Assembly: GCA_000701725.1 (NCBI GenBank)
Contig: JNJQ01000009.1
Span: 1-64,000, forward strand
Reading direction: 5' to 3'
Length of the DNA: 64,000 bases
Source: Erysipelotrichaceae bacterium NK3D112
GTDB taxonomy: Bacteria > Bacillota_I > Bacilli_A > Erysipelotrichales > Erysipelotrichaceae
Shown: one piece after another, positions 2,590-44,752 of the stretch
Layout: each line of letters begins with the position of its first letter
Numbering within the stretch: the first letter of the stretch is position 1
The notes under the pieces: model-generated
Told to the model about the DNA's origin: nothing
What the model saw: the letters and a program-made list of their open reading frames with translations, nothing else
The model's database searches: none
Position numbers and translations under genes: made by a program

Positions 2590-3423
2590 TCAGTCGATTC
2601 TGATTTTCGTGATGTCATCGTATTTGTTGATGAAGTACCAGGAATAAAGCACATTCAGATAGTACTCCATACAGGCGTGGGAGGAGAAATTGGCATAGCG
2701 GCGGTATTTCTTCTCCTTGTCGGGCAGATACAGAACCACATCGCTGAGCCGGGCGAGTTCGCCCGAGCGCAAGGAGGTCAGGGTGACGGATGGAACATGA
2801 TTCTCTTTCAGAATCCGCGCGCATTGCAGGGTTGATTCGGTAACGCCGGAAAAGCTCAGCAGTAAACCGCAGTCCTTTTCCCCGAGGGTCTGGGCGAGAT
2901 GGCTCTGTTCGCCATAGACGGGAGAACTTAAGAATTGATTGAAGCCTGCCCGCATCATTCTCGCCTGAAATGCCAGGCCTGAGACAAACGCGTCACCGAC
3001 CCCGAAAATGACGACTCTTTCCGCATGCATCATCAGATTGCCGGCTTTTTCAAAATCATCTGCGGAAGCGGTGATCAGGCTACGAGCTTCTTTCAGTGAT
3101 TCCTCGGTCAGTTTCTCCAGGCGCAGGGCGATATCGCTGATCCCGTCATTCTTGTGAAAGGGAATGTTGGCATCGATTTCATTGATCAGTTGCCGCTGCT
3201 GTTCCAGCTCGGCGGAGAAACGGATTTTGAATTCCTGGTAGCCGCTTAAGCCGATCCGTTTGCATAAGCGGATGATCGCCGCCGGGGATGTGTATGTGTC
3301 CCGGGCAAGTTCGGCAGCGCTGCGGCTGAGGATCCGGTCTTTTTTCTCGAGAATGTAATTGGAGATTTCTTTTTCGTTATGGGAAAAACCGTTCTGTTCT
3401 TCCAGCTGTCTTATGATTTTCAT
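2590..3423 (-). CDS. RpiR/MurR-family transcriptional regulator (HTH-SIS)
   Basis: A sugar-phosphate-responsive DNA-binding protein of 277 residues. The N-terminus is an HTH_6 domain (about 1-78, with LARDTYTSPAAIIRLCKRIGL as recognition region) and the C-terminus is a SIS domain (about 100-260, VVIFGVGDAF...), which in this family binds phosphosugars. It is divergent from the GH4 phospho-glycosidase, and a palindrome typical of RpiR-family sites sits in the shared intergenic region at 3442-3458. It therefore probably controls that gene and itself. The ATG at 3423 lacks a strong SD. A TTG at 3501 would add 26 residues but would place the palindrome inside the gene, so I prefer the shorter form. 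Confidence 0.85.
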   Translation of the reverse strand: MKIIRQLEEQNGFSHNEKEISNYILEKKDRILSRSAAELARDTYTSPAAIIRLCKRIGLSGYQEFKIRFSAELEQQRQLINEIDANIPFHKNDGISDIALRLEKLTEESLKEARSLITASADDFEKAGNLMMHAERVVIFGVGDAFVSGLAFQARMMRAGFNQFLSSPVYGEQSHLAQTLGEKDCGLLLSFSGVTESTLQCARILKENHVPSVTLTSLRSGELARLSDVVLYLPDKEKKYRRYANFSSHACMEYYLNVLYSWYFINKYDDITKIRID

Positions 3424-3441
3424 GAGTTCATTGTATGTGAT

Positions 3442-3458
3442 ATGAAATAAAATTTCAT
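3442..3458. promoter_or_regulatory. Palindromic operator between RpiR regulator and GH4 gene
   Basis: Perfect inverted repeat ATGAAAT-AAA-ATTTCAT. Its length and layout resemble known RpiR-family sites (HexR/MurR-like, TGWAAT-N3-ATTWCA). It lies 19 bases upstream of the regulator start and about 118 bases upstream of the GH4 start. Confidence 0.65.
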
Positions 3459-3575
3459 CTGTTTTGAAATGAACGGATTCAATTTTGAAAGTTCCTGCCA
3501 ACTTGATCCGCGCGCATTGTTTTCGCTTTTGTGTTCCGATATATTTTTCTTGTCAATCAAAAGGAGAACAACATA

Positions 3576-4976
3576 ATGGCAGAAAAGAAGCGTGTCAAAA
3601 TCGTCACCATCGGCGGCGGTTCCAGCTACACTCCCGAACTTATGGAAGGCTTCATCAAGCGTTACGAGGAGCTTCCCATCCGTGAAATCTGGCTCTGTGA
3701 TATTGAGGACGGAAAAGAAAAACTCGAAATCGTCGGCGCGATGGCGCAGCGCATGTGGGATGCCACACCGTATGATGTCAAGGTTCATCTGACTCTCGAC
3801 CGCAGGGAAGCCCTGCCCGGTGCTGACTTTGTCACAACCCAGTTCCGTGTCGGTCTGCTCAATGCGAGAATCAAGGATGAGAGAATTCCGCTTTCCTACG
3901 GCATGCTCGGTCAGGAGACCAATGGCGCCGGCGGTATGTTCAAGGCATTCCGCACCATCCCCGTCATTCTCGGCATCATCGAGGATATGAAGGAATTATG
4001 CCCGGACGCATGGCTGATCAACTTCACCAATCCGTCCGGAATGGTTACCGAAGCCGCAATCAAATGGGGCGGCTGGAAGAAGACAGTCGGTCTTTGCAAC
4101 GTGCCTGTCGGCGCACTGCTCAGAGAGCCTCCGCAGTTCGGTCTGACCGAAAGAGAATGCATTCACCAGTTCGCCGGTCTCAACCATTTCCACTGGCATA
4201 AGGTGTCTGATGCGCATGGCAACGATCTGACCGACAAGCTGATCGACAACATGTATGATCCGACCGTGGATGACGGCACTCCTGCCAACATCTTCGATGT
4301 CAAGTTCCTCAAGGAGCACCTCAAGCAGATCCAGCTGATTCCGTGCGGATATCACCGCTACTATTACATGCATGATGAAATGCTGAAGCATGCCATCGAG
4401 GAATTCAACACGGTCGGCACACGTGCCCAGCAGGTCAAGCAGACAGAAGCCGAACTGTTCGAGCTTTACAAGGATCCCAATCTGAATTACAAGCCGGAAC
4501 AGCTCTCCAAGCGCGGCGGCGCCCACTATTCCGATGCGGCGTGCGAGTGCATCTGCTCCATTTACAACGACAAGAGAACACACATGGTCGTCTCCACCCA
4601 GAACAACGGCGCGATCTCTGATCTGCCGTATGACTGCATCGTTGAAATCTCCTCCATCATCACCGGCAGGGGACCGATGCCTCTGAACTGGGGCAGCTTC
4701 CATCCGAGTGAGAGAGGCTATGTCCAGCTGATGAAGGCAATGGAAGAGTGCGTCATTGAAGCAGCTATTACCGGCAACTACGGTCTTGCCCTGGCGGCGT
4801 TTGAAATGAACCCGCAGGTTGAACACGGACATGTTGCCCAGACCGTTCTCGATGAACTTCTGGTTGCCCATGAGAAATATCTGCCGCAGTTTGCGGAAAA
4901 GATTGCCGAACTCAAGGCGGCCGGCGTCTATCCGAAGGACGAGGTTGTCCAGGAACTTCTCAAGGAAGGCAAGTAA
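3576..4976 (+). CDS. 6-phospho-beta-glucosidase, glycoside hydrolase family 4
   Basis: GH4 enzymes hydrolyse 6-phosphorylated disaccharides, delivered by a PTS, by an unusual NAD+- and Mn2+-dependent redox-elimination mechanism in the cytoplasm. The 466-residue length is typical. The Rossmann nucleotide-binding loop GGGSSYTPE is at residues 13-21, and the family sequences NFTNPSG (about 149-155) and GLNHFHW (about 201-207) are present, together with metal-site Cys and His residues in the LCNVP and GLNH regions. The ATG at 3576 is chosen because AGGAG lies 13 bases upstream. The divergent RpiR regulator suggests induction by a phosphosugar. No PTS genes are in the window, so the exact substrate (cellobiose-P or another beta-glucoside) is open. 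Confidence 0.9.
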   Translation: MAEKKRVKIVTIGGGSSYTPELMEGFIKRYEELPIREIWLCDIEDGKEKLEIVGAMAQRMWDATPYDVKVHLTLDRREALPGADFVTTQFRVGLLNARIKDERIPLSYGMLGQETNGAGGMFKAFRTIPVILGIIEDMKELCPDAWLINFTNPSGMVTEAAIKWGGWKKTVGLCNVPVGALLREPPQFGLTERECIHQFAGLNHFHWHKVSDAHGNDLTDKLIDNMYDPTVDDGTPANIFDVKFLKEHLKQIQLIPCGYHRYYYMHDEMLKHAIEEFNTVGTRAQQVKQTEAELFELYKDPNLNYKPEQLSKRGGAHYSDAACECICSIYNDKRTHMVVSTQNNGAISDLPYDCIVEISSIITGRGPMPLNWGSFHPSERGYVQLMKAMEECVIEAAITGNYGLALAAFEMNPQVEHGHVAQTVLDELLVAHEKYLPQFAEKIAELKAAGVYPKDEVVQELLKEGK

Positions 4977-4985
4977 TTGATCAAT

Positions 4986-5008
4986 AACCGGGGATCATCC
5001 CCGGTTTT
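4986..5008 (+). terminator. Rho-independent terminator after GH4 gene
   Basis: AACCGGGGAT and ATCCCCGGTT form a 10-bp stem with a minimal loop, followed by a short T stretch. Confidence 0.7.
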
Positions 5009-5031: not shown

Positions 5032-6087
5032 ATGCCGTTTGAAATCAGTCACGACGTGTTGAAGAAATACGAAGGAAATGAAACCCGTGTCATCATTCCC
5101 GAAGGAATCCGGGAAATCGCTGACTATGCTTTTTATGGCGCCCATGCCATGGAATACATTTCCATTCCCTCTTCCGTAAAGGAAATCGGAACCAACGCGT
5201 TTTATGACTGTGCCAGCCTCAAGGAGGCGGTATTGCCTGATTCACTCTTTTATCTTGGCAGCGCCGCGTTCGGCAGATGCTTTGATCTGAAACGTGTATG
5301 GCTGCCCGATTCGCTGACCTCACTGCCGCGGATCGCTTTCTTTCAGTGCGAAAGACTGGAACAGATCCGTCTGCCCGAAACAATCACCCGCATCGGGCGG
5401 GCATGCTTTGAGAAATGCCGCAGCCTGCATGTGATCGTTCTGCCGGAAACACTGAGAATTCTCGAGGATAACGTGTTTGATGAATGCACGCAGCTGGAAG
5501 CCGTATTCCTTCCTGAAAACCTTGAGGAAATCGGAAACAATGTCTTCATCGGCTGTGAAAATCTCGCGGAGATCACCCTTGGCAAGAACGTCAGAAAGAT
5601 CGGCACCGGTGCCTTTGAAACAGGCGGAAGCCTGAAGCTGAATGTGCCTGAGGGAACAGAGATCAGACCGCAGATGCTCGACAACCGCTGGAATATGGAC
5701 TGGCGCACCGACACACCAAGCAGGCTGGATGAAAAGAAATATCTGCTTCATGATTCCTATATTCCCTCATTGCGGCTGAATGAGTGGAAGCCTTTGTCCA
5801 GGGTTGTGCTGGCTGTCAATTATCTGGAGACCTACCGCGGACCGCTGGAAAACTATGAAACATGGATTCGTGAACATACACAGGAGCTGCTTGAGATGAT
5901 TGTCTCATCAAAGCGCTATGAGGCGCTTAACAAAGCCCTGGCAAACAATATTCTGGACGCGGACCTGGTACAGCCGTATCTGTACAGGATCAATGACCGC
6001 GACGAAAAGGCGAAGCTGCTTGAAATGAGCAGGAATCAGAAAAAGAAGGATGATCTTCTTTCCATGGATCTGGATGATCTGTTCTGA
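5032..6087 (+). CDS. BspA-like leucine-rich repeat protein, predicted cytoplasmic
   Basis: Residues about 15-225 form eight or nine LRR_5 repeats of about 23 residues with the pattern I..YAF..C..L..I.LP..V..IG..AF. This is the BspA/TpLRR solenoid used for protein-protein contact. Residues 235-351 are a helical tail with YIPSLRLNEW, an ankyrin-like stretch and an acidic end (MDLDDLF). No signal peptide or anchor is visible, which is unusual because most BspA-like proteins are secreted. The start has a GGAAAAGAG SD. It is 16 bases ahead of the VWA gene and 1.4 kb ahead of the MoxR ATPase on the same strand, so the three probably form one operon. A role as adaptor or substrate selector for the ATPase is inference. 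Confidence 0.8.
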   Translation: MPFEISHDVLKKYEGNETRVIIPEGIREIADYAFYGAHAMEYISIPSSVKEIGTNAFYDCASLKEAVLPDSLFYLGSAAFGRCFDLKRVWLPDSLTSLPRIAFFQCERLEQIRLPETITRIGRACFEKCRSLHVIVLPETLRILEDNVFDECTQLEAVFLPENLEEIGNNVFIGCENLAEITLGKNVRKIGTGAFETGGSLKLNVPEGTEIRPQMLDNRWNMDWRTDTPSRLDEKKYLLHDSYIPSLRLNEWKPLSRVVLAVNYLETYRGPLENYETWIREHTQELLEMIVSSKRYEALNKALANNILDADLVQPYLYRINDRDEKAKLLEMSRNQKKKDDLLSMDLDDLF

Positions 6088-6103
6088 AAGGGGGTGAGCG
6101 GAT

Positions 6104-7504
6104 ATGGATGAGGAACTGATTCAGATCAGTGAGGAAATCTTTGCGTATATCAGAAGTCAGCTGACTTTTCATCTGCGCTTCATGGACCTCGCCCTGAACA
6201 ATTATCAACTGATTCCCGACGCGCTGGAATACCGCTGTGACGGGAAGTTTTTCCATTATCCGCCGATCGCTCTGATCAAGACATTCCGGAACAATCCCAA
6301 TGAGATGGTCAGAGGATATCTCCATGTTGTATTGCATTCGGTTTTCCAGCATCTTTATTTCTCGAAAAACCGCCGGATGTCACTCTGGAATCTGGCCGCG
6401 GATATCGCCGTTGAAAATGTGATCGAACAGCTCGGATTATCATGCGCGGAAACACCCGCCTCACAGGAAAAGCAAAGGCAGATCGCAAAGATCCGCGAGA
6501 AGATTCCGGTATTCACTGCTCAGAAGATCTACCATTATCTGGAAGATCTTGAAACCGATCAGATCAAACTGCTCGCACCGGTGTTTTATTTTGACAATCA
6601 TGAATGCTGGTATGAAATCCGCGATTCCATCGGCACTTCCGAAACGCTCTATGGCGAAGAGAACCGCGATAATCCATCCGCTTCAGGCGGCAACCGCTTT
6701 GAAGGAGCCACCCATGACACAGGCGAATCACAGGAAGGGGAGGATCCCCATGCGTCTGAAGAAGAAATCCGGCAGATCCGCAACGCGCTGAAAGACTGGA
6801 AGGAAATCTCGGAAAAGATTGGAACTGATCTCGAAACATTCAACCGCGAGGAAGGCGAAAAGGCAGAAGCGCTGGTGCAGTCGCTCAAGGCGCTTCATAG
6901 GGAAAAATACAGCTACAGAACATTCCTGAGAAAGTTCATGAGTCCGGGTGAAAAGATGAAGATCTCGGATGAGGACTTCGATCTGATCTTTTACACATAC
7001 GGACTGAATCTCTACCGCAATCTTCCCTTAATTGAGCCGCTGGAATACCAGGAGATGAACAACATCCGCGAGCTGGTGATTGCCATTGACACCTCCGGCT
7101 CGGTGCAGGGTGATATCGTGCAGGATTTTCTGCAGAAGACCTATAACATCTTTCAGGAAAAAGAGAGCTTCTTCTCCCATTTCCGCATTCACATCCTGCA
7201 ATGCGACATGATGATCCGCGATACCGCCGTGATCACAACCATGGCGGAATTTGAAAAATACATCGAAACGATGGAAATCAAAGGACTTGGCGGAACGGAC
7301 TTCCGGCCGGTGTTCAGCTATGTGAATGAACAGATTGAACAAAACGTGTTCCGAAGATTCGGAGGACTGCTTTATTTCACGGACGGCGACGGGGTTTATC
7401 CCAAATACCGTCCGTCATACCAATGCGCATTTCTGTTTCCCAAAGGAAACAAGGAAATCACCGTGCCGCCCTGGGCGATCAGATATTCACTGGAGGAGGA
7501 CTGA
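6104..7504 (+). CDS. VWA-domain protein with DUF2201-type putative metallopeptidase-like N-terminus
   Basis: A 466-residue protein. The N-terminal part (about 1-130) resembles the putative metallopeptidase domain that precedes VWA-like domains in this family. Its usual HExxH motif is replaced by HVVLHSVFQH, so catalysis is doubtful. Residues about 180-225 are a polar, acidic linker. The C-terminal VWA domain has an intact MIDAS motif DTSGS (about 328-332) and GGTD near 396. The gene begins 16 bases after the leucine-rich protein with an AAAGGGGG SD, and ends 3 bases before the MoxR ATPase gene. MoxR/VWA pairs commonly act as metal- or cofactor-insertion chaperones, but the target here is unknown. 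Confidence 0.8.
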   Translation: MDEELIQISEEIFAYIRSQLTFHLRFMDLALNNYQLIPDALEYRCDGKFFHYPPIALIKTFRNNPNEMVRGYLHVVLHSVFQHLYFSKNRRMSLWNLAADIAVENVIEQLGLSCAETPASQEKQRQIAKIREKIPVFTAQKIYHYLEDLETDQIKLLAPVFYFDNHECWYEIRDSIGTSETLYGEENRDNPSASGGNRFEGATHDTGESQEGEDPHASEEEIRQIRNALKDWKEISEKIGTDLETFNREEGEKAEALVQSLKALHREKYSYRTFLRKFMSPGEKMKISDEDFDLIFYTYGLNLYRNLPLIEPLEYQEMNNIRELVIAIDTSGSVQGDIVQDFLQKTYNIFQEKESFFSHFRIHILQCDMMIRDTAVITTMAEFEKYIETMEIKGLGGTDFRPVFSYVNEQIEQNVFRRFGGLLYFTDGDGVYPKYRPSYQCAFLFPKGNKEITVPPWAIRYSLEED

Positions 7505-7507
7505 CCT

Positions 7508-8983
7508 ATGCATATCAATGAAGCGAAAACACAGATCCGCAATGCGATCACAGCCTATTGCGCAAAAAATGCCAACGGAACACTGAAAATCCCGGCCCAG
7601 GCACAGCGTCCGGTATTCCTGGTCGGCGCGCCGGGCATCGGAAAAACCGCGATCGTTGAACAGATCGCTTCAGAGATGGATCTCGGCTTTGTCTCCTATT
7701 CAATGACCCACCACACAAGACAAAGCGCTCTCGGTCTTCCCTATATCGTGGAAAAGGAATACGGTGGAAAGAAATACAGTGTTTCCGAATACACGATGAG
7801 TGAAATCCTGGCCAGCGTCTATGATGAGATGGAACGAAGCGGCAGAAAGACAGGCATTCTCTTTCTGGATGAAATCAACTGCGTTTCCGAAACGCTTGCT
7901 CCGAGTATGCTGCAGTTTCTGCAGTATAAGACATTCGGCCGCCACCGTGTGCCGGAGGGCTGGATTGTCGTGACCGCGGGAAACCCGGCGGAATACAACG
8001 ATTCGGTGCGTGAATTTGACATCGCGATGCTTGACCGTCTCAAGAAAATCGAAGTTGAGCCTGATTTTGAGGTTTGGAAGGAATTCGCCGTGAAAACCGG
8101 TGTCCATCCGTCCGTTCTTTCCTATCTTTCCATCAAGCCGCAGTATTTTTACAGAGTCAGCACCACCATTGACGGCAAGAGCTTTGTGACCGCAAGAAGC
8201 TGGGATGATCTTTCCAGGATGATCAGTGTCTATGAGGAAAACGGACTGGAAGTCGACCGCCATCTGATCAGCCAGTATGTGCAGGATGAACAGATTGCTT
8301 CCGACTATGCCAATTATTATGATCTCTACCGCAAATATCAGTCCGATTATCAGGTGGAACAGATCATTGACGGCACGGTGTCAGAAGACATCGTCAAACG
8401 TGCATCCGGTGCGAAGTTCGATGAGCGTCTTTCCCTGATCAGCCTGGTGCTCTCCTCGCTTGAGGATCAGATCTCTGAAACCCTGCGCTATGAGGAAAGC
8501 ATGAAGGAAATCATTGCGGAAGTAAAAGGCAAGGATGCACCGTATCACGCGTTCATGAACGAAAGAGCATCATTCTGGAATGCGAAGTCGATGGAAACCG
8601 ATACCCGCGCGAAAGTGGATAAGGCGCTCTGCACGAAAAAGATCTATGAGGAGCTCGCAAAAGTTCTTGAAGGCAGTGATACAAAAGAGACACTGAAAAA
8701 AGAACTCCAAAGCCGTCTGAATTCATTCAGAGAAATGAATCAGAAAGCGCAGAGTTCTCTGGATCATACATTCCGTTTCATGGAGAAGGCCTTTGCGGCG
8801 GGACAGGAGATGCTCATCCTCGTCTCTGAGCTGACCATTCGACCGGATATCGCGGAATACATCTATGCCCATGGCTGTGAGAAGTATTTTGAATACAATG
8901 ACAAGCTGCTCTTTGAGGATCAGAAGAGCACCCTGAACAAGCGCATCGAGGATCTCAATCTGCTCTCAATGGAAGAGATTTAA
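7508..8983 (+). CDS. MoxR-type AAA+ ATPase
   Basis: A 491-residue AAA+ protein with Walker A GAPGIGKT (about 39-46), Walker B ILFLDE (about 117-122) and a sensor-1 region VVTAGNP. The second half is a long helical extension with a predicted coiled coil (about 350-440) not found in minimal MoxR proteins. MoxR ATPases remodel or activate protein partners, often together with VWA proteins, and the VWA partner is the preceding gene. The last four bases overlap the stop of the convergent metallo-hydrolase gene, and I see no terminator between them. Confidence 0.85.
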   Translation: MHINEAKTQIRNAITAYCAKNANGTLKIPAQAQRPVFLVGAPGIGKTAIVEQIASEMDLGFVSYSMTHHTRQSALGLPYIVEKEYGGKKYSVSEYTMSEILASVYDEMERSGRKTGILFLDEINCVSETLAPSMLQFLQYKTFGRHRVPEGWIVVTAGNPAEYNDSVREFDIAMLDRLKKIEVEPDFEVWKEFAVKTGVHPSVLSYLSIKPQYFYRVSTTIDGKSFVTARSWDDLSRMISVYEENGLEVDRHLISQYVQDEQIASDYANYYDLYRKYQSDYQVEQIIDGTVSEDIVKRASGAKFDERLSLISLVLSSLEDQISETLRYEESMKEIIAEVKGKDAPYHAFMNERASFWNAKSMETDTRAKVDKALCTKKIYEELAKVLEGSDTKETLKKELQSRLNSFREMNQKAQSSLDHTFRFMEKAFAAGQEMLILVSELTIRPDIAEYIYAHGCEKYFEYNDKLLFEDQKSTLNKRIEDLNLLSMEEI

Positions 8984-38213: not shown

Positions 38214-39728
38214 ATGAAAAAATTAAATTATGAAGTACTGAGAGAGTCCGGCTATGACGGATACATTCTGGAAAAGGCTCCGGAAAAAGTACTTCAGTTC
38301 GGCGAAGGAAACTTCCTTCGCGCATTCGCAGATTATTGGTTTGATGTGTCCAACGAAAAGGCCGGATGGAACGGAAAGTGCGTTCTTGTCTGCCCGATCC
38401 AGGGCGGTCTGTCTGATCTGATCAATGAACAGGAAGGTCTTTACACCCTGTATCTGCGCGGCCGTGAAAACGGTGAGAAAGTTGACCGCAAGAGAGTGAT
38501 TTCCGTCGTTTCAAGATGCCTCAATCCGTATCGTGACGCGGATTTTGACGCGATGATGGAAGTTGCCCGTTCCGCAGACCTCGAATATGTCGTTTCCAAC
38601 ACAACCGAGGCCGGTATTGTTTATGATCCCGCCTGCCAGCTGGCTGACAGACCCGCTTCCTCATTCCCTGGCAAACTGACCCAGGTTCTTCTGGAGCGCT
38701 TCAAGGCAGGACAGAAGGGTCTTGTGATCCTTTCCTGTGAGCTGATCGACAACAACGGCAAGGAACTTCTCAGATGCGTCAACCAGTATATTGACCAGTG
38801 GGAACTTTCCGATGAATTCCGCAAATATGTCAATGAAGACTGCCTCTTCTGCTCCACCCTGGTCGACCGTATCGTTCCGGGCCGTATCCGCGATCCGAAA
38901 GAGGTTGAACGTCTGGAACAGCTCCACGGCTATGCCGATCCGCTGCTTGATGTCGGTGAAGTCTTCGGTGTCTGGAATATCGAAGGACCGGCATGGCTGG
39001 AAGAAAAGCTGCCGTTCAAGAAGGCCGGACTCAACTGCCCGGTTGTACCGGATGTCACTCCTTACAAGAAGAGAAAGGTGCGCATCCTCAATGGCGCCCA
39101 TACAGGATTCGTTCTCGGCGCTTATCTGGCCGGATTTGATATCGTGCGCGACTGCATGCAGAATGACACAGTTCTGAACTTCATGAACACAATGCTTTAT
39201 GACGAAGTCATCCCGACCCTGCCGCTTGACAAGGATGATCTGATGAACTTCGCAAGAGCGGTCCAGGACCGTTTCAACAACCCGTTCGTCAACCATGAAC
39301 TGATGAGCATTTCCCTCAACTCCACCTCCAAGTGGAGAGCACGTGATCTGCCCAGCCTGATTGAATACAAGGAAAAGACAGGCAAGCTGCCTGAATGCCT
39401 GACTGCAAGCTTCGCCGCTTACATGGCATTCTTCTCCAATGACATCCAGGAACTCAATGACAAGGGCCTTGTCTGCAGACGCGCTGCCGGCAATGACTAT
39501 GTTGTCAGCGATGACCGCTTCGTTCTGGAATTCTACTATGAACACAGAAATGACACACCGGCAGAACTGACTCACGCTGTCATGAAGGATGAGCGTATGT
39601 GGGGCATGGATCTGACATCCATCGAAGGCTTCGAGGAAGCTGCCTGCGCATATCTGGAAGTCATCCGCAAGGAAGGCGCTCTTGCCGCATATGATCTGGC
39701 TCTGAAGAAGGGAGCTGCCAATGCTTGA
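38214..39728 (+). CDS. uxaB: Tagaturonate reductase (altronate oxidoreductase)
   Basis: Reduces D-tagaturonate to D-altronate with NADH in galacturonate breakdown. The 504-residue protein is a polyol-type mannitol dehydrogenase family member: VLQFGEGNFLRAFADYW (about 24-40) is the N-terminal nucleotide loop, and the family region KKRKVRILNGAHTGFVLGAYLA (near 283-304) holds catalytic Lys and Asn/His. The neighbours uxaA and uxaC specify tagaturonate rather than fructuronate. The SD is AAAGGAG. It overlaps uxaA by eight bases. Confidence 0.93.
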   Translation: MKKLNYEVLRESGYDGYILEKAPEKVLQFGEGNFLRAFADYWFDVSNEKAGWNGKCVLVCPIQGGLSDLINEQEGLYTLYLRGRENGEKVDRKRVISVVSRCLNPYRDADFDAMMEVARSADLEYVVSNTTEAGIVYDPACQLADRPASSFPGKLTQVLLERFKAGQKGLVILSCELIDNNGKELLRCVNQYIDQWELSDEFRKYVNEDCLFCSTLVDRIVPGRIRDPKEVERLEQLHGYADPLLDVGEVFGVWNIEGPAWLEEKLPFKKAGLNCPVVPDVTPYKKRKVRILNGAHTGFVLGAYLAGFDIVRDCMQNDTVLNFMNTMLYDEVIPTLPLDKDDLMNFARAVQDRFNNPFVNHELMSISLNSTSKWRARDLPSLIEYKEKTGKLPECLTASFAAYMAFFSNDIQELNDKGLVCRRAAGNDYVVSDDRFVLEFYYEHRNDTPAELTHAVMKDERMWGMDLTSIEGFEEAACAYLEVIRKEGALAAYDLALKKGAANA

Positions 39729-41193
39729 TTTCATCAAAATCAATGAGACCGACAATGTCGCGGTTGCCCTGCATCCGATTACAGCGGGAACCGTGTTTGA
39801 AGGTGTTGAAATCAAGGAGGATATTCCCCAGGGACACAAGGCTGCCCTGAGAACAATCCGCAAAGATGAAACCGTCATGAAATACGGTCTGCCGATCGGT
39901 CATGCGACTGCAGATATTGAACAGGGCCATTGGGTTCATACCCACAACATGGCCACCAATCTGTCCGGCGAGGTCGAATACACATACTGCCCGAAGAATG
40001 TTGTCCAGCAGCCGCTTGAGCCGCGCACATTCATGGGCTACCGCCGCAAGGACGGCAGAGCCGCGATCCGCAACGAGATCTGGATCATTCCGACTGTCGG
40101 CTGCGTCAATGACGTTGCCAAGACACTGGTCAGAGACAACCAGGATCTTGTTCAGGGCTCCATCGACGGCTTATATACATTCACACATCCGTTCGGTTGC
40201 TCACAGACCGGACATGACCATGCCCAGACCAGAAAGCTTCTGGCTTCCCTGGTCAGACATCCCAATGCCGGCGCTGTTCTGGTATTGAGCCTCGGATGTG
40301 AAAACCTGACTCATGAGCAGTTCCTTTCCGAACTTGGCGAATATGATGAGAAGCGCGTGAAGTTCCTGACCTGCCAGGCGGTTGAGGATGAATTCGAAGC
40401 CGGCAGAAAGCTGCTTGAAAAATGCGCGGAATACGCATCCCAGTTTGAGCGTGAGGAAATTCCGGTCAGCGAACTGGTAGTCGGTATGAAGTGCGGCGGC
40501 TCCGACGGACTTTCCGGCATCACCGCCAACCCGACTGTCGGCCGTTTCTCCGATATGATGACGGCGATGGGCGGCACCACAATCCTGACCGAGGTTCCGG
40601 AAATGTTCGGCGCGGAAAGCTTCCTGCTTGACCGCTGCGTCAATGAGGCTGTCTTCAACAAAGCTTCAAAAATGCTCAACGGCTTCAAGGATTACTTCCT
40701 TTCCCATAACGAGGTTGTTTATGACAACCCGTCCCCGGGCAACAAGCAGGGCGGCATCACAACGCTTGAGGACAAATCATGCGGCTGCGTCCAGAAGGGC
40801 GGCAGCGCACCGATCGCCGATGTCATCGGCTATGCCGAAACAGTCAAGACCAAGGGTCTCAACCTGCTCTACGGTCCGGGCAATGACCTGGTATCCGCTA
40901 CCGCTCTGACAGCGGCAGGCGCACATATGATTCTGTTTACAACCGGTCGCGGAACACCGTTCGGCGCACCGGCACCCACTTTGAAAATCGCAACAAACAC
41001 ACCGCTTGCGACCAAGAAGGCCAACTGGATTGACTTCAATGCCGGCGCGGTCGCGGATGGAGAAAAGACACTCGATGAGGCAGGCGCGGATCTTCTGGAT
41101 CTGGTTGTCCGCACGGCATCCGGTGAGAAGACCTGCACAGAGCGCAAGGGCTTCCGTGAAATCTCCATCTTCAAAGACGGCGTTGTGCTCTGA
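39721..41193 (+). CDS. uxaA: Altronate dehydratase
   Basis: Removes water from D-altronate to make 2-keto-3-deoxygluconate. The 490-residue protein has the small N-terminal SAF domain (about 1-95, with AVALHPITAGT) and the large UxaA domain with conserved Cys/His metal ligands. Examples are the HPFGCSQTGHDH stretch (about 156-167), MKCGGSDGLSG (about 256-266) and KSCGCVQKGG. The family is iron-dependent. Its ATG overlaps the end of uxaB, so the two are translated together. Confidence 0.95.
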   Translation: MLDFIKINETDNVAVALHPITAGTVFEGVEIKEDIPQGHKAALRTIRKDETVMKYGLPIGHATADIEQGHWVHTHNMATNLSGEVEYTYCPKNVVQQPLEPRTFMGYRRKDGRAAIRNEIWIIPTVGCVNDVAKTLVRDNQDLVQGSIDGLYTFTHPFGCSQTGHDHAQTRKLLASLVRHPNAGAVLVLSLGCENLTHEQFLSELGEYDEKRVKFLTCQAVEDEFEAGRKLLEKCAEYASQFEREEIPVSELVVGMKCGGSDGLSGITANPTVGRFSDMMTAMGGTTILTEVPEMFGAESFLLDRCVNEAVFNKASKMLNGFKDYFLSHNEVVYDNPSPGNKQGGITTLEDKSCGCVQKGGSAPIADVIGYAETVKTKGLNLLYGPGNDLVSATALTAAGAHMILFTTGRGTPFGAPAPTLKIATNTPLATKKANWIDFNAGAVADGEKTLDEAGADLLDLVVRTASGEKTCTERKGFREISIFKDGVVL

Positions 41194-41212
41194 GTATTGA
41201 AGGAGGAAAACA

Positions 41213-42070
41213 ATGATGCAGCTGGGAATTCGCCTGCATGATGTCAACGCATCACTTTCTGAAGAATATCAGACATTGGAAAAGCGTGCGGAAAAGGCCC
41301 GTGAGGAAGGTTTCTCATGTGTGCATCTTGCTTATTCCAAAGTCATCAAAGGCTATACCTTCGACAACTGCGCGCTGACGGAAGGACTTGCCCGTTACAC
41401 ACGCAGAGTATTTGAAAAGGAAAATCTGGATGTGGCAGTGCTGGGATGCTATCTCAACCTTGCCCATCCGGATGCCGGTAAACTCAAGGAGATCCAGTCC
41501 CGCTATTACGGGAATATCCGGGTCGCCTCGCTGCTTGGCGCATCGGTTGTCGGAACCGAGACCGGTGCTCCGAATGCGGCATACAAAACCGACGCGAACA
41601 CCCACTCCAAAGAAGCGCTGGAAACCTTTATCAAAGGACTTGCGCCGGTTGTGGAGTGCGCTGAAAAGTACGGTGTCTCAATGGCTATTGAGCCGGTCTG
41701 GAAACATATCGTTTACTCTCCGGAAAGGGCGAGAATCGTACTCGATGCGATCGGCAGCCGCAATCTGCGCATCATCTTTGATCCGGTGAATCTGCTCTGT
41801 GTTGAAAACATGGATCAAAGAGAAGAGATCTTTGCAAAGACCATTGAGCTGCTCGGTGATGATATCGCTGTGGTTCATCTCAAGGACTTTGTGCCGGAAG
41901 GAAATGATCTCACCAGCATCGCGGCCGGCACCGGCATGATGGATTACAGACAGATCCTGAAATTCGTGAAGGAAAGAAAACCCTTCATCCAGGCAACCCT
42001 TGAGAATACCAATAACGACAATGCGGTTGCGTCCAGACTTTATCTGGAGAATGTTTACAGAGAACTCTGA
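41213..42070 (+). CDS. Sugar phosphate isomerase/epimerase-like TIM-barrel protein
   Basis: A 285-residue xylose-isomerase-like TIM barrel (AP_endonuc_2 family). Metal ligands can be placed in GTETGAP (about 122-128), AIEPVWKH, IIFDPVN and VHLKDF, with a final Glu in TLENT. Members isomerise or epimerise sugars, inositols or keto-acids, but the family does not tell the substrate. Its location between uxaA and kdgK suggests work on a galacturonate-related or side-chain sugar. ATG 41213 is followed by a second ATG; GGAGG is upstream. Confidence 0.75.
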   Translation: MMQLGIRLHDVNASLSEEYQTLEKRAEKAREEGFSCVHLAYSKVIKGYTFDNCALTEGLARYTRRVFEKENLDVAVLGCYLNLAHPDAGKLKEIQSRYYGNIRVASLLGASVVGTETGAPNAAYKTDANTHSKEALETFIKGLAPVVECAEKYGVSMAIEPVWKHIVYSPERARIVLDAIGSRNLRIIFDPVNLLCVENMDQREEIFAKTIELLGDDIAVVHLKDFVPEGNDLTSIAAGTGMMDYRQILKFVKERKPFIQATLENTNNDNAVASRLYLENVYREL

Positions 42071-42219
42071 GCATGATCATTGCATAAACACGTTTTTTGC
42101 AATGTGAACCGCAATTATGACAATCGAAAACACACCGGAAATGATTGATTATGAAACAGGATCAATGACCGGATGTGAACGACCTGAAAAACTTAGACAG
42201 AAGAGAGGCGAATAAGGTT

Positions 42220-43305
42220 ATGGAACATCATAATCCTCTGCTGAATATCAATCCAGGCAAGAAATTCATCACTTTCGGTGAAGTCATGATGAGACTGACA
42301 CCGCCCAACTATGACAAGATCCGTGTGGCAACCACATTTGAAATCAGCTACGGCGGCTCGGAAGCCAACATTGCCCTGGCACTGGCAAACCTGAAGATTG
42401 ACAGCACATTCTTCAGTGTTGTGCCGGACAATTCCCTGGGAAAGAGCGCGGTGCGTATGCTGCGAAGCAATGATGTGCACTGCACACCGGTGATTCTCTC
42501 CACACCAGAGCAGACCCCGACTCACAGAATGGGTGTCTATTATCTGGAAACCGGTTACGGAATCCGTCCGTCAAGAGTCACCTATGACCGCAAGCACAGC
42601 GCGATTTCCGAATTTGATTTCTCGGTAATTGATGAAAAACAGCTGCTGGAAGGCTATGACTGGCTCCATCTGTCCGGCATTACGCCGGCACTCAGCGAAA
42701 GCTGCCGTGAATTCATCCTGCGCCTGATGAAGGCTGCCAAGGAAATGGGGCTGACCGTCAGTTTTGACGGCAACTTCAGATCCAAGCTGTGGAGCTGGGA
42801 AGAAGCGAGAGACTATTGCACACAGTGTCTGCCTTATGTGGATGTGCTGTTCGGCATTGAACCGTATCATCTTTACAAGGATGACAATGATCCGTCCAAA
42901 GGTGACTGGAAGGACGGCCTGTCCATGCATCCGAGCTATGAGGATCAGGATGAGGTCTTCCAGAGATTCATCGAAAAATATCCGAATATCAAATGCATTG
43001 CCCGTCACGTCCGCTACGCGCACTCAGGCTCTGAGAACAGTCTGATGGCATACATGTGGTATGACGGACACACATTCGAAAGCAAAAAGTTCACGTTCAA
43101 CATTCTGGACAGAGTCGGCGGCGGCGACGCGTTTGCCAGCGGACTGATTTATGCGATGATGAATAACTATAAACCGATGGACATGATCAATTTCGCGGTT
43201 GCGTCCAGTGTCATCAAGCATACAATCCATGGCGACGGCATGATCGTCGATGACGTTGAATCCATCCGGAACCTGATGAATATGAACTATGATATCAAGA
43301 GATAA
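42220..43305 (+). CDS. kdgK: 2-keto-3-deoxygluconate kinase
   Basis: Phosphorylates 2-keto-3-deoxygluconate to KDPG, where both pectin branches meet. The 361-residue PfkB-fold protein has the start region ITFGEVMMRLTPPNYDKI, the substrate loop SYGGSEANIALALANL and the ATP-site DRVGGGDAFASGLIYA with the catalytic Asp (about 301-316). It is longer than many kdgK products (about 310-340). GTG 42175 is an alternative start, but 42220 gives the normal N-terminus. The 149-bp gap before it holds a CATTGCA...TGCAATG hairpin and nothing I can call a gene. Confidence 0.9.
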   Translation: MEHHNPLLNINPGKKFITFGEVMMRLTPPNYDKIRVATTFEISYGGSEANIALALANLKIDSTFFSVVPDNSLGKSAVRMLRSNDVHCTPVILSTPEQTPTHRMGVYYLETGYGIRPSRVTYDRKHSAISEFDFSVIDEKQLLEGYDWLHLSGITPALSESCREFILRLMKAAKEMGLTVSFDGNFRSKLWSWEEARDYCTQCLPYVDVLFGIEPYHLYKDDNDPSKGDWKDGLSMHPSYEDQDEVFQRFIEKYPNIKCIARHVRYAHSGSENSLMAYMWYDGHTFESKKFTFNILDRVGGGDAFASGLIYAMMNNYKPMDMINFAVASSVIKHTIHGDGMIVDDVESIRNLMNMNYDIKR

Positions 43306-43318
43306 GAGGTAAAAGAGA

Positions 43319-44752
43319 ATGAAAGCATTTATGGACAGGAATTTCCTTCTGGAGACAGAAACCGCTCAGCATCTGTTCCACGATTACGCTGACAGCATGC
43401 CGCTGGTTGACTATCACTGCCACATCTCCCCGAAGGAAATCTACGAGGACAGGCGCTTCAACAACCTGGCGGAAGTATGGCTCGGCGGAAAGAATCCGGA
43501 CGGAACTTATTTCGGCGACCACTACAAGTGGAGAGTCATGCGTTCCAACGGAACACCGGAAGATTACATCACCGGCGACAAGCCTGACTTTGAGCGTTTT
43601 ATGAAATTCACGGAAGCACTGGAAATGGCCATCGGCAATCCGATGTATCACTGGTGCAACCTTGAACTGCACAAGTATTTCGGCATCGAGGAACCGCTGA
43701 CTGTTGAATCAGCTGAAAGAATCTGGAACAAGTGCAATGACATGCTGAAGAATGATCCGGGAATGACCGTACGCGGACTGATCAAAAAGTCCAACGTCGC
43801 ATTCATCGGCACAACCGATGATCCGGTTGATTCCCTGGAATGGCATAAGAAGATCAAGGAAGATCCGACCATCGAAGTGAAGGTTTGCCCTTCCTTCCGT
43901 CCTGACAAAGCCCTCAATATCCATAAGGAAGGCTTCGCGGAATATATCGGCCAGCTCGCAAAGAGCGTCGGCAAGGAATCCCTGAACTCCGCTGAGGAAG
44001 TCATTGACGCCCTCATCGAACGTCTGGAATTCTTCGCGGAAATGGGCTGCCGCGCAAGTGACCACGGTCTGGATTACATTCCGTTCCGCAAGACTGACAT
44101 GGCAAAGATCAACGCAACCTTCTGCAAGGTCATGAAGGGTGAGGCGATCACTGTTGAAGAGGCTGAGGAATATCAGACAGCAGGTCTGCTCGCACTGGGC
44201 AAGGCATATCACCGCCTGAACATTGCCATGCAGCTGCACTATTCCTGCCACAGAAACGCAAATGAGCGTATGTACCGCAGACTCGGTCCGGATACCGGTT
44301 TCGATATGATCGCAACCAACACCTGCGGTGAGGATATCGCAAACTTCCTCTCCGAACTGGACAAGACAAACGAATGCCCCAAGACCATTCTCTATTCCCT
44401 GAATCCGGTTGACAATGAACTGCTTGGCACAATGCTGGGCTGCTTCCAGTCGGATGAGGTTCCGGGCAAGATCCAGCTCGGTTCCGCATGGTGGTTCAAT
44501 GACACAAAGAGCGGAATGGAAGATCAGATGAGAGCACTGGCCAACCTCGGTCTGCTCGGCAACTTTGTCGGCATGCTCACAGACTCCCGTTCCTTCCTCT
44601 CCTATGCCCGCCATGATTATTTCCGCCGCATTATGTGCAACATGGTCGGCAACTGGGTTGAAAACGGAGAATATCCGAACATCGAATCATCCCTGAAGAA
44701 GATCGTTGAAGGCATCAGCTACACTAACGCAAAGCGCTACTTCGGTCTGTAA
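43319..44752 (+). CDS. uxaC: Glucuronate (galacturonate) isomerase
   Basis: Isomerises D-galacturonate to D-tagaturonate, and D-glucuronate to D-fructuronate, the first intracellular step for saturated monomers. The 477-residue length is typical. The TIM-barrel metal-site motif DYHCHISPKEIYED is at about 31-44, and LHYSCHRNAN and GSAWWFND occur in the second half. It is the last gene of the pectin block, 13 bases after kdgK, and is followed by a strong terminator. Beta-glucuronidase at 57637 would also feed it. Confidence 0.96.
   Translation: MKAFMDRNFLLETETAQHLFHDYADSMPLVDYHCHISPKEIYEDRRFNNLAEVWLGGKNPDGTYFGDHYKWRVMRSNGTPEDYITGDKPDFERFMKFTEALEMAIGNPMYHWCNLELHKYFGIEEPLTVESAERIWNKCNDMLKNDPGMTVRGLIKKSNVAFIGTTDDPVDSLEWHKKIKEDPTIEVKVCPSFRPDKALNIHKEGFAEYIGQLAKSVGKESLNSAEEVIDALIERLEFFAEMGCRASDHGLDYIPFRKTDMAKINATFCKVMKGEAITVEEAEEYQTAGLLALGKAYHRLNIAMQLHYSCHRNANERMYRRLGPDTGFDMIATNTCGEDIANFLSELDKTNECPKTILYSLNPVDNELLGTMLGCFQSDEVPGKIQLGSAWWFNDTKSGMEDQMRALANLGLLGNFVGMLTDSRSFLSYARHDYFRRIMCNMVGNWVENGEYPNIESSLKKIVEGISYTNAKRYFGL

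Follow-up and report, generated by a model that had tools for sequence, protein, structure and literature searches.

We analyzed a stretch of 64,000 nucleotides (nt) from Erysipelotrichaceae bacterium NK3D112 (assembly GCA_000701725.1, contig JNJQ01000009.1, positions 1 to 64,000; hereafter, the window), in which three consecutive genes on the + strand encode a leucine-rich repeat (LRR) protein, a protein with a von Willebrand factor A (VWA) domain and a MoxR-type AAA+ ATPase. The LRR and VWA genes are separated by 16 nt, and the VWA and MoxR genes by 3 nt. This arrangement had been described in an earlier note made from the sequence alone, and it was confirmed both by the open reading frames (ORFs) and by its recurrence in relatives. 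The LRR gene of the trio is the only one in the window. None of the three proteins received a name from NCBIfam at its cut-offs, and PADLOC returned only weak AAA+ matches for them. The features of the trio are as follows (pLDDT, predicted local distance difference test; MIDAS, metal-ion-dependent adhesion site):

5032–6087, + strand: ORF of 351 residues for a BspA-type LRR protein, predicted to be cytoplasmic, a putative adaptor or sensor (PF13306)
5071–5646, + strand: LRR solenoid, residues ~14–205, with strands about every 23 residues (predicted model; PF13306)
5647–5790, + strand: linker, residues 206–253, with a loop at ~213–238 (alignment of 19 type I proteins; pLDDT <50 at 221–237)
5791–6063, + strand: helical C-terminal module, residues 254–344 (predicted helices; profile–profile match to the clostridial third-component module)
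6064–6084, + strand: acidic and hydrophobic C-terminal tail ending in MDLDDLF (sequence; tail statistics in relatives; last residues pLDDT <50)
6104–7504, + strand: ORF of 466 residues for the VWA protein, with a putative DUF2201_N pseudo-metallopeptidase domain and a C-terminal VWA domain (Pfam; structure match)
6323–6352, + strand: HVVLHSVFQH, residues 74–83 of the VWA protein, a peptidase motif with V in place of the glutamate and three histidines kept (alignment of relatives)
7073–7483, + strand: VWA domain with intact MIDAS, comprising DTSGS (7088–7102), T398 and D427 (PF09967; invariant in 37/37 relatives; structure match)
7508–8983, + strand: ORF of 491 residues for the MoxR-type AAA+ ATPase (AAA_5; invariant motifs)
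7625–7648, + strand: Walker A motif of MoxR
7868–7873, + strand: Walker B residues D121/E122 of MoxR

The three-part LRR–VWA–MoxR set recurs in many gut bacteria of the Bacillota and Coriobacteriia. We searched 195 genomes of the window's family with the MoxR protein as the query and obtained matches at E 1e-3 in 53 of them. True relatives (E < 1e-100) were found in 12 genomes at 14 places, and the remaining matches were weak AAA+ proteins, mostly short. The similarity-ranked set comprised the best 80 of at least 589 MoxR relatives obtained by scanning named genomes, and these belonged to Clostridia and Eggerthellaceae/Coriobacteriia, with some Erysipelotrichaceae. Because this set was ranked by similarity, we added a class sample of 341 Clostridia genomes chosen independently of similarity, 19 of which carried MoxR; its counts were taken among loci L125–L140, the diverged MoxRs of L141 and L142 being dropped. 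Among 392 genomes of the window's phylum, MoxR was present in only two. A gene was scored as near MoxR when it lay within 2.8 kb, and only loci with flanks were counted, short-flank loci being dropped. The neighborhood survey, which the earlier note had set as the test capable of refuting its proposal, found the LRR gene together with the pair: it adjoined the pair at all 14 family places, and an LRR gene or a gene for the C-terminal module described below was near MoxR in 62 of the 64 similarity-ranked loci (LRR in 57, module in 56; exceptions, L088 and L089) and in 11 of the 15 class-sample loci. Among the 13 family places other than the window, the LRR gene was seen directly in 12; at the 13th, the contig stops 212 bases past the VWA start, within an open frame ending in STYSFEDF, which is the end of an LRR protein, the rest lying on another contig. 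In the class sample, the LRR gene of L138 lies at a greater distance upstream, in the same orientation, and L137 apparently encodes the same protein, truncated where the retrieved sequence ends.

The association does not depend on one gene order. Across the loci we observed LRR–VWA–MoxR, VWA–LRR–MoxR (in two genomes of the family), VWA–MoxR–LRR and divergent arrangements, and two family genomes hold two different sets each. Among genes of at least 150 codons, LRR genes made up 75 of 262 within 1.8 kb of MoxR versus 3 of 69 beyond 4.5 kb. A module search of the 341 Clostridia genomes gave matches in 14 genomes, and proteins combining LRRs with the module were present in 11 of the 19 MoxR-positive versus none of the 322 MoxR-negative genomes (presence in genomes, Fisher P = 5e-16). 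The matches in three MoxR-negative genomes were PilB-like, recombinase and glycosyltransferase proteins without LRRs, named by reading their sequences, and were dropped as false. Three unlinked LRR-module copies, on contigs other than that of the pair, were found in G828, G546 and G878. In the family, strong module matches occurred in 10 of the 12 MoxR-positive genomes and in none of the 183 others; those weaker than E 1e-35 were treated as noise, except G070:C62, which is the end of the same split gene. Because the profiles were built from these members, the informative part of the family test is the absence elsewhere. Beside the pair, the two MoxR-positive genomes without a strong match carry a third type of LRR gene. 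In L107, a gene for a SIR2_2/AbiH-like protein (5090–5992) lies between the LRR gene and MoxR.

The LRR protein matches LRR_5 (PF13306, BspA type) with E 3e-55, and its predicted structure (pLDDT 89.2) shows regular repeat strands, a disordered loop, helices at 254–344 and an uncertain tail; the best LRR structure match was 6mlx (Z 24.9, root-mean-square deviation 1.8, 194 aligned residues). BspA-type proteins are normally surface proteins with a secretion signal. In agreement with the earlier note, no signal peptide was found in the window protein by a hydropathy screen, the highest 15-residue mean within the N-terminal 45 residues being 0.69. By the same screen, which is not a signal-peptide predictor, an N-terminal hydrophobic stretch was missing in the window protein and in 104 of 105 LRR proteins of the set, and the third proteins of the set thus appear to be cytoplasmic.

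At the C-terminus, these LRR proteins have a helical module of ~60–90 residues and then a short tail. For its detection we relied on a seed model built from 12 LRR C-termini and on profile comparison, because an iterated model drifts and also matches internal stretches. At E 1e-3, the seed model retrieved 87 proteins. Two of these have ankyrin repeats, occupy the LRR slot and were matched at their C-termini (E 7.6e-13 and 6.1e-10, although the seed contained only LRR proteins); DUF6273 proteins were matched more weakly (E 2e-5 to 2e-3). The window-type module and the clostridial third-component module were matched by profile–profile comparison with a probability of 94% (E 1.3e-7), and the second family-type module was also homologous (96.7%), compared with 0.3% for a control profile; profiles A7 and A8 were not significantly similar when compared directly and are linked via A4. 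The last residue was hydrophobic in 65 of 74 proteins with the module at the C-terminus, compared with 35% of the other ORF products (n = 1194). The repeats of the type I LRR proteins in the window's clade are well conserved, and the loop at 213–238 is strongly conserved across the 19 aligned sequences; it is not evident in other LRR types as aligned. DUF6273 proteins fill the third slot in L119, L120 and L098; by eye, the end of the L060 protein resembles them, and L098 shows a BRCT-like stretch without a database match. The LRR-linked proteins L073:7531-9015 and L087:431-1444 start with or contain KIRTDFVTNSSSSSF / KFRTDFVTNSSSSSF, a striking common N-terminal motif.

The VWA protein matches both DUF2201_N (PF13203, E 1e-7, 32 bits versus a cut-off of 23.2) and the DUF2201 VWA-like domain (PF09967, E 2e-12), and a VWA fold was recognized in its C-terminal half (Z ~13 to VWA/I domains). 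Searches for solved homologues by sequence gave only generic AAA+ matches for MoxR and none that was convincing for the full-length VWA protein. The earlier note had described a broken HExxH motif and suggested that the metallopeptidase-like part may be structural. The first observation holds in a more precise form and the second needs changing: only the glutamate is replaced, residue 75 being E in none of the 37 relatives aligned, whereas H74, H78, H83, W95, D100, E104, D164, H166 and W169 are invariant in all 37. Because the histidines and acidic ligands are invariant while the glutamate was lost across the whole subfamily, the N-terminal part appears to be a pseudo-peptidase that binds metal and has been conserved, not one that has decayed. 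Proteins of the same two-domain kind also lie next to other MoxR genes (for example, in L146–L150 and L157), where they differ from those of the set: HExxH is kept in 9 of 10 distinct proteins and no LRR gene was found within the ~1.5-kb flanks, whereas HExxH was missing in 5 of 5 same-class proteins belonging to the LRR–VWA–MoxR set. DUF2201_N proteins in L148 (1093–2898), L149, L150 and L152 have two peptidase-like motifs, an intact HELLH or HEFLH and an HCLLH without the glutamate, as if one half of a duplicated domain were dead. Two neighboring ORFs take the place of a single VWA frame in L134 (G828) and L143, which may reflect a broken gene or a sequence error.

The third ORF matches AAA_5 (PF07728, E 1e-9). 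Its invariant residues comprise those of Walker A (G43, G45, K46 and T47), Walker B (D121 and E122), the sensor (N159) and the arginine finger (R177), and the adjacent VWA co-factor has a MIDAS whose DxSxS motif, T398 and D427 are invariant in 37/37, as expected of a MoxR protein.

Upstream of the trio lie the following features:

3573–4976, + strand: glycoside hydrolase family 4 (GH4) 6-phospho-beta-glucosidase, candidate client (PF02056/PF11975; 1s6y, E 4e-157; synteny)
4986–5006, + strand: terminator-like hairpin, AACCGGGG..CCCCGGTT then TTTTG, between the GH4 and LRR genes (sequence; not listed by the scan)
2593–3501, – strand: RpiR-type regulator with a SIS domain, divergent from GH4 (PF01418, E 4e-16; PF01380, E 5e-14)

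GH4 enzymes form an NAD+- and metal-dependent family, and the window protein carries a CNVP motif. Besides the window locus, 15 loci in 60 genomes of the same genus contain a GH4 with an identity of 89% or more, and the set lay beside it at 14 of these. The trio was directly downstream in 12, as far as the contig reaches; in L258 and L259, the MoxR end lies just before GH4, placing GH4 on the other side of the set, and L045, apparently on the same contig as L258, has a complete trio and then GH4. None of 14 GH4 paralogues (50–66% identity) had a trio gene within 1.5 kb. In other genera (L031–L033), GH4 is also upstream, with one intervening gene in two of the three. In most GH4-linked loci, GH4 and the LRR start are separated by a GC-rich hairpin with trailing T's. 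It is probably the terminator of GH4 itself, because L260 has the hairpin yet lacks the trio, and read-through from GH4 into the LRR gene is likely, because little promoter room is left after it. Redox or metal enzymes were also noted beside the pair elsewhere, by eye and with no background count: FAD and 2Fe-2S proteins in both type III loci, a DUF362 4Fe-4S protein in L136 and an iron-dependent alcohol dehydrogenase (Fe-ADH) in L139. A more distant run of genes in the window (38214–44752) reads like a uronate pathway, judged by eye from ORF starts.

MoxR–VWA pairs occur widely, and clients are known for few of them; those with known function remodel a client enzyme, and CbbQO rubisco activase and CoxDE are pairs dedicated to a client enzyme encoded nearby. 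We know of no exchangeable repeat adaptor in CbbQO or CoxDE. As judged from these precedents and the gene context, we consider it somewhat probable that the trio encodes a MoxR–VWA remodelling machine with an exchangeable client adaptor docked by a common tail, and that GH4 is the most likely client in the window's clade. MoxR would be the motor ring and the VWA/pseudo-peptidase protein its co-factor, and the LRR protein would serve as the adaptor, its repeat domain binding a specific protein. The helical module and the hydrophobic tail would dock the LRR protein to the pair, possibly with the tail seated in the MIDAS site or the AAA+ pore, and ATP turnover would then remodel the client, which in the window's clade might mean maturation or reactivation of GH4, in parallel to NorQD or CbbQO. 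The suggestion in the earlier note that the repeat protein selects the target would fit a constant C-terminal module combined with an exchangeable N-terminal repeat domain, and the conserved type I repeats and loop 213–238 are as a fixed client would require.

The proposed holding of the client by the LRR protein and its docking by the tail follow the analogy with NorQD of Paracoccus, for which, in the accessible parts of the accounts, an acidic patch of the client is the proposed binding partner of the MIDAS, and the ring pore is occupied by a finger of the VWA domain (PMC9976466, PMC13036017). That system likewise combines a MoxR ring with a VWA protein having an intact MIDAS and is encoded beside its client; it differs in that NorD itself is called the adaptor, no LRR protein is involved and the client is a membrane nitric oxide reductase. 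A parallel in gene content is provided by E. coli yehI-yehL-yehM-yehP-yehQ, where MoxR and VWA genes lie beside a gene for a DUF4132 protein, and L062 likewise has DUF4132 in the third slot. We tried kinship with YehL/YehP and rejected it, as neither this MoxR family nor this VWA family gave a hidden Markov model match.

Several observations weigh against an adaptor machine serving GH4. One GH4 of at least 89% identity (L260) has no set beside it, the other clades examined did not show GH4 next to the set, and simple inheritance of synteny could explain the linkage. For the DUF4132 protein, the match to the module seed model is weak (E 0.38). Sequences of the window's clade vary more in the module than in the repeats (mean entropy 1.68 versus 1.34), which is unexpected for a rigid docking site. 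Clostridia can have hypervariable LRR parts in multiple copies, which would be needless in an adaptor for a housekeeping client. Within the class sample, L134, whose VWA gene looks split, has a third component only on another contig and none linked, and no third component was found in L139.

A possible though unlikely alternative is that the set is an immune-like conflict system, in which a variable LRR protein senses an invader or foreign proteins and the MoxR–VWA pair acts as a threshold switch, as proposed for the MoxR–vWA ternary systems of multicellular bacteria. In most of the closely related pairs, divergence of the LRR protein was roughly double that of VWA and MoxR (for WIN/G022, the VWA row was left out as a wrong ORF), with purifying selection where measurable. 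One case is a pair of Ruminococcus flavefaciens loci (L087/L094) that have in common a block of ~6.7 kb, near-identical over most of its length and with unrelated flanks: LRR residues 17–120 and 185–347 are 62–64% identical (synonymous divergence, dS, 0.56–0.72), compared with 99% for the last 498 residues of the LRR protein and 99–100% for VWA and MoxR. In this one case, the recognition repeats look as if they had been replaced locally. Variable repeats with near-identical ends are likewise seen in a tandem pair in L070, whereas the pattern is less clear or missing in other sets of LRR paralogues. The presence of several LRR paralogues per locus and the patchy distribution also fit a conflict role; Erysipelotrichales MoxRs fall in at least three separate places of a quick tree with many open forks, which suggests repeated transfer. 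However, the ratio of nonsynonymous to synonymous divergence (dN/dS) in the variable LRR stretches is 0.43–0.44 and not >1, the LRR is conserved rather than hypervariable in the window's clade, and no effector domain was seen in the loci read, nor any linked effector or defence context in the window trio. A defence-island context was also unsupported in Clostridia: among 103 neighbor proteins of 16 loci, PADLOC at E 1e-10 gave little signal, with mad3-type matches in six members and single matches such as AbiD or DndA/SspA. As for carriage by viruses or plasmids, the plasmid search for relatives was empty and IMG/VR gave two weak matches (29% over 87 residues). Seven unannotated human-fecal 'Bacteriophage sp.' scaffolds (H1–H7, MT83xxxx) encode MoxR relatives of 42–58% identity, six over at least 92% of the query and one over 62%. 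Their virus origin is doubtful and bacterial contamination is possible, because the scaffold examined (L212, MT835935.1) is marked UNVERIFIED.

The comparison with the published ternary systems also argues against this alternative. In the accessible parts of PMC7159879 and PMC8195603, these systems likewise encode a MoxR AAA+ ATPase and a VWA protein with a third component thought to recognize something, namely VMAP, iSTAND, FtsH or a beta-propeller, and later iSTAND2 and TERNS3; LRR third components are not mentioned there. The core third components, including a beta-propeller fused to VWA, are absent from the window trio: its VWA protein carries DUF2201 domains only, and the bpMoxR model scored 25.1 bits, under its 27-bit cut-off. 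The set described here differs in that its third component is an LRR protein (or an ankyrin, DUF6273 or DUF4132 protein) with a common C-terminal module, its VWA domain is fused to a putative pseudo-metallopeptidase and no effector was seen. In the literature searched, which included few subscription journals, we found no description of the LRR–VWA–MoxR set.

The set may nevertheless act in sensing or defence, given that one transferred cassette shows almost no differences outside its LRR. We tentatively consider, as a rather unlikely broader form, a programmable sensor-chaperone in which a constant MoxR–VWA motor would read exchangeable, partly hypervariable cytoplasmic LRR or ankyrin receptors via one C-terminal docking tail, as a split modular counterpart of NLR-type receptors spread in cassettes among gut bacteria. 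It appears improbable that the LRR protein is itself the client, with the pair assembling or activating LRR (or ankyrin) proteins whose site of action lies elsewhere. The unlinked copies and the presence of more than one LRR protein for a single pair would suit one machine with many clients, and the common tail also resembles a client recognition tag; however, the GH4 linkage would be left unexplained and simple LRR solenoids are not known to need assembly factors, although by sequence this model is hard to tell from an adaptor. That the LRR gene is a functionless neighbor, present by chance or hitch-hiking, is highly implausible even though some clostridial genomes may harbor many LRR genes, and it is already refuted, unless the module match is spurious, by the co-occurrence in the family, best-80 and class samples, the varied gene orders and the unlinked copies found solely in genomes with the pair.

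If the adaptor model is correct, a three-part machine whose recognition proteins are swappable and have one docking module in common would offer a direct handle on how MoxR–VWA pairs choose their clients. It would also assign a function to BspA-type proteins of the cytoplasm and, for one clade, point to GH4 as a concrete and testable client. If instead the hypervariable LRR proteins prove to be sensors, the set would represent a new type of receptor in gut bacteria.

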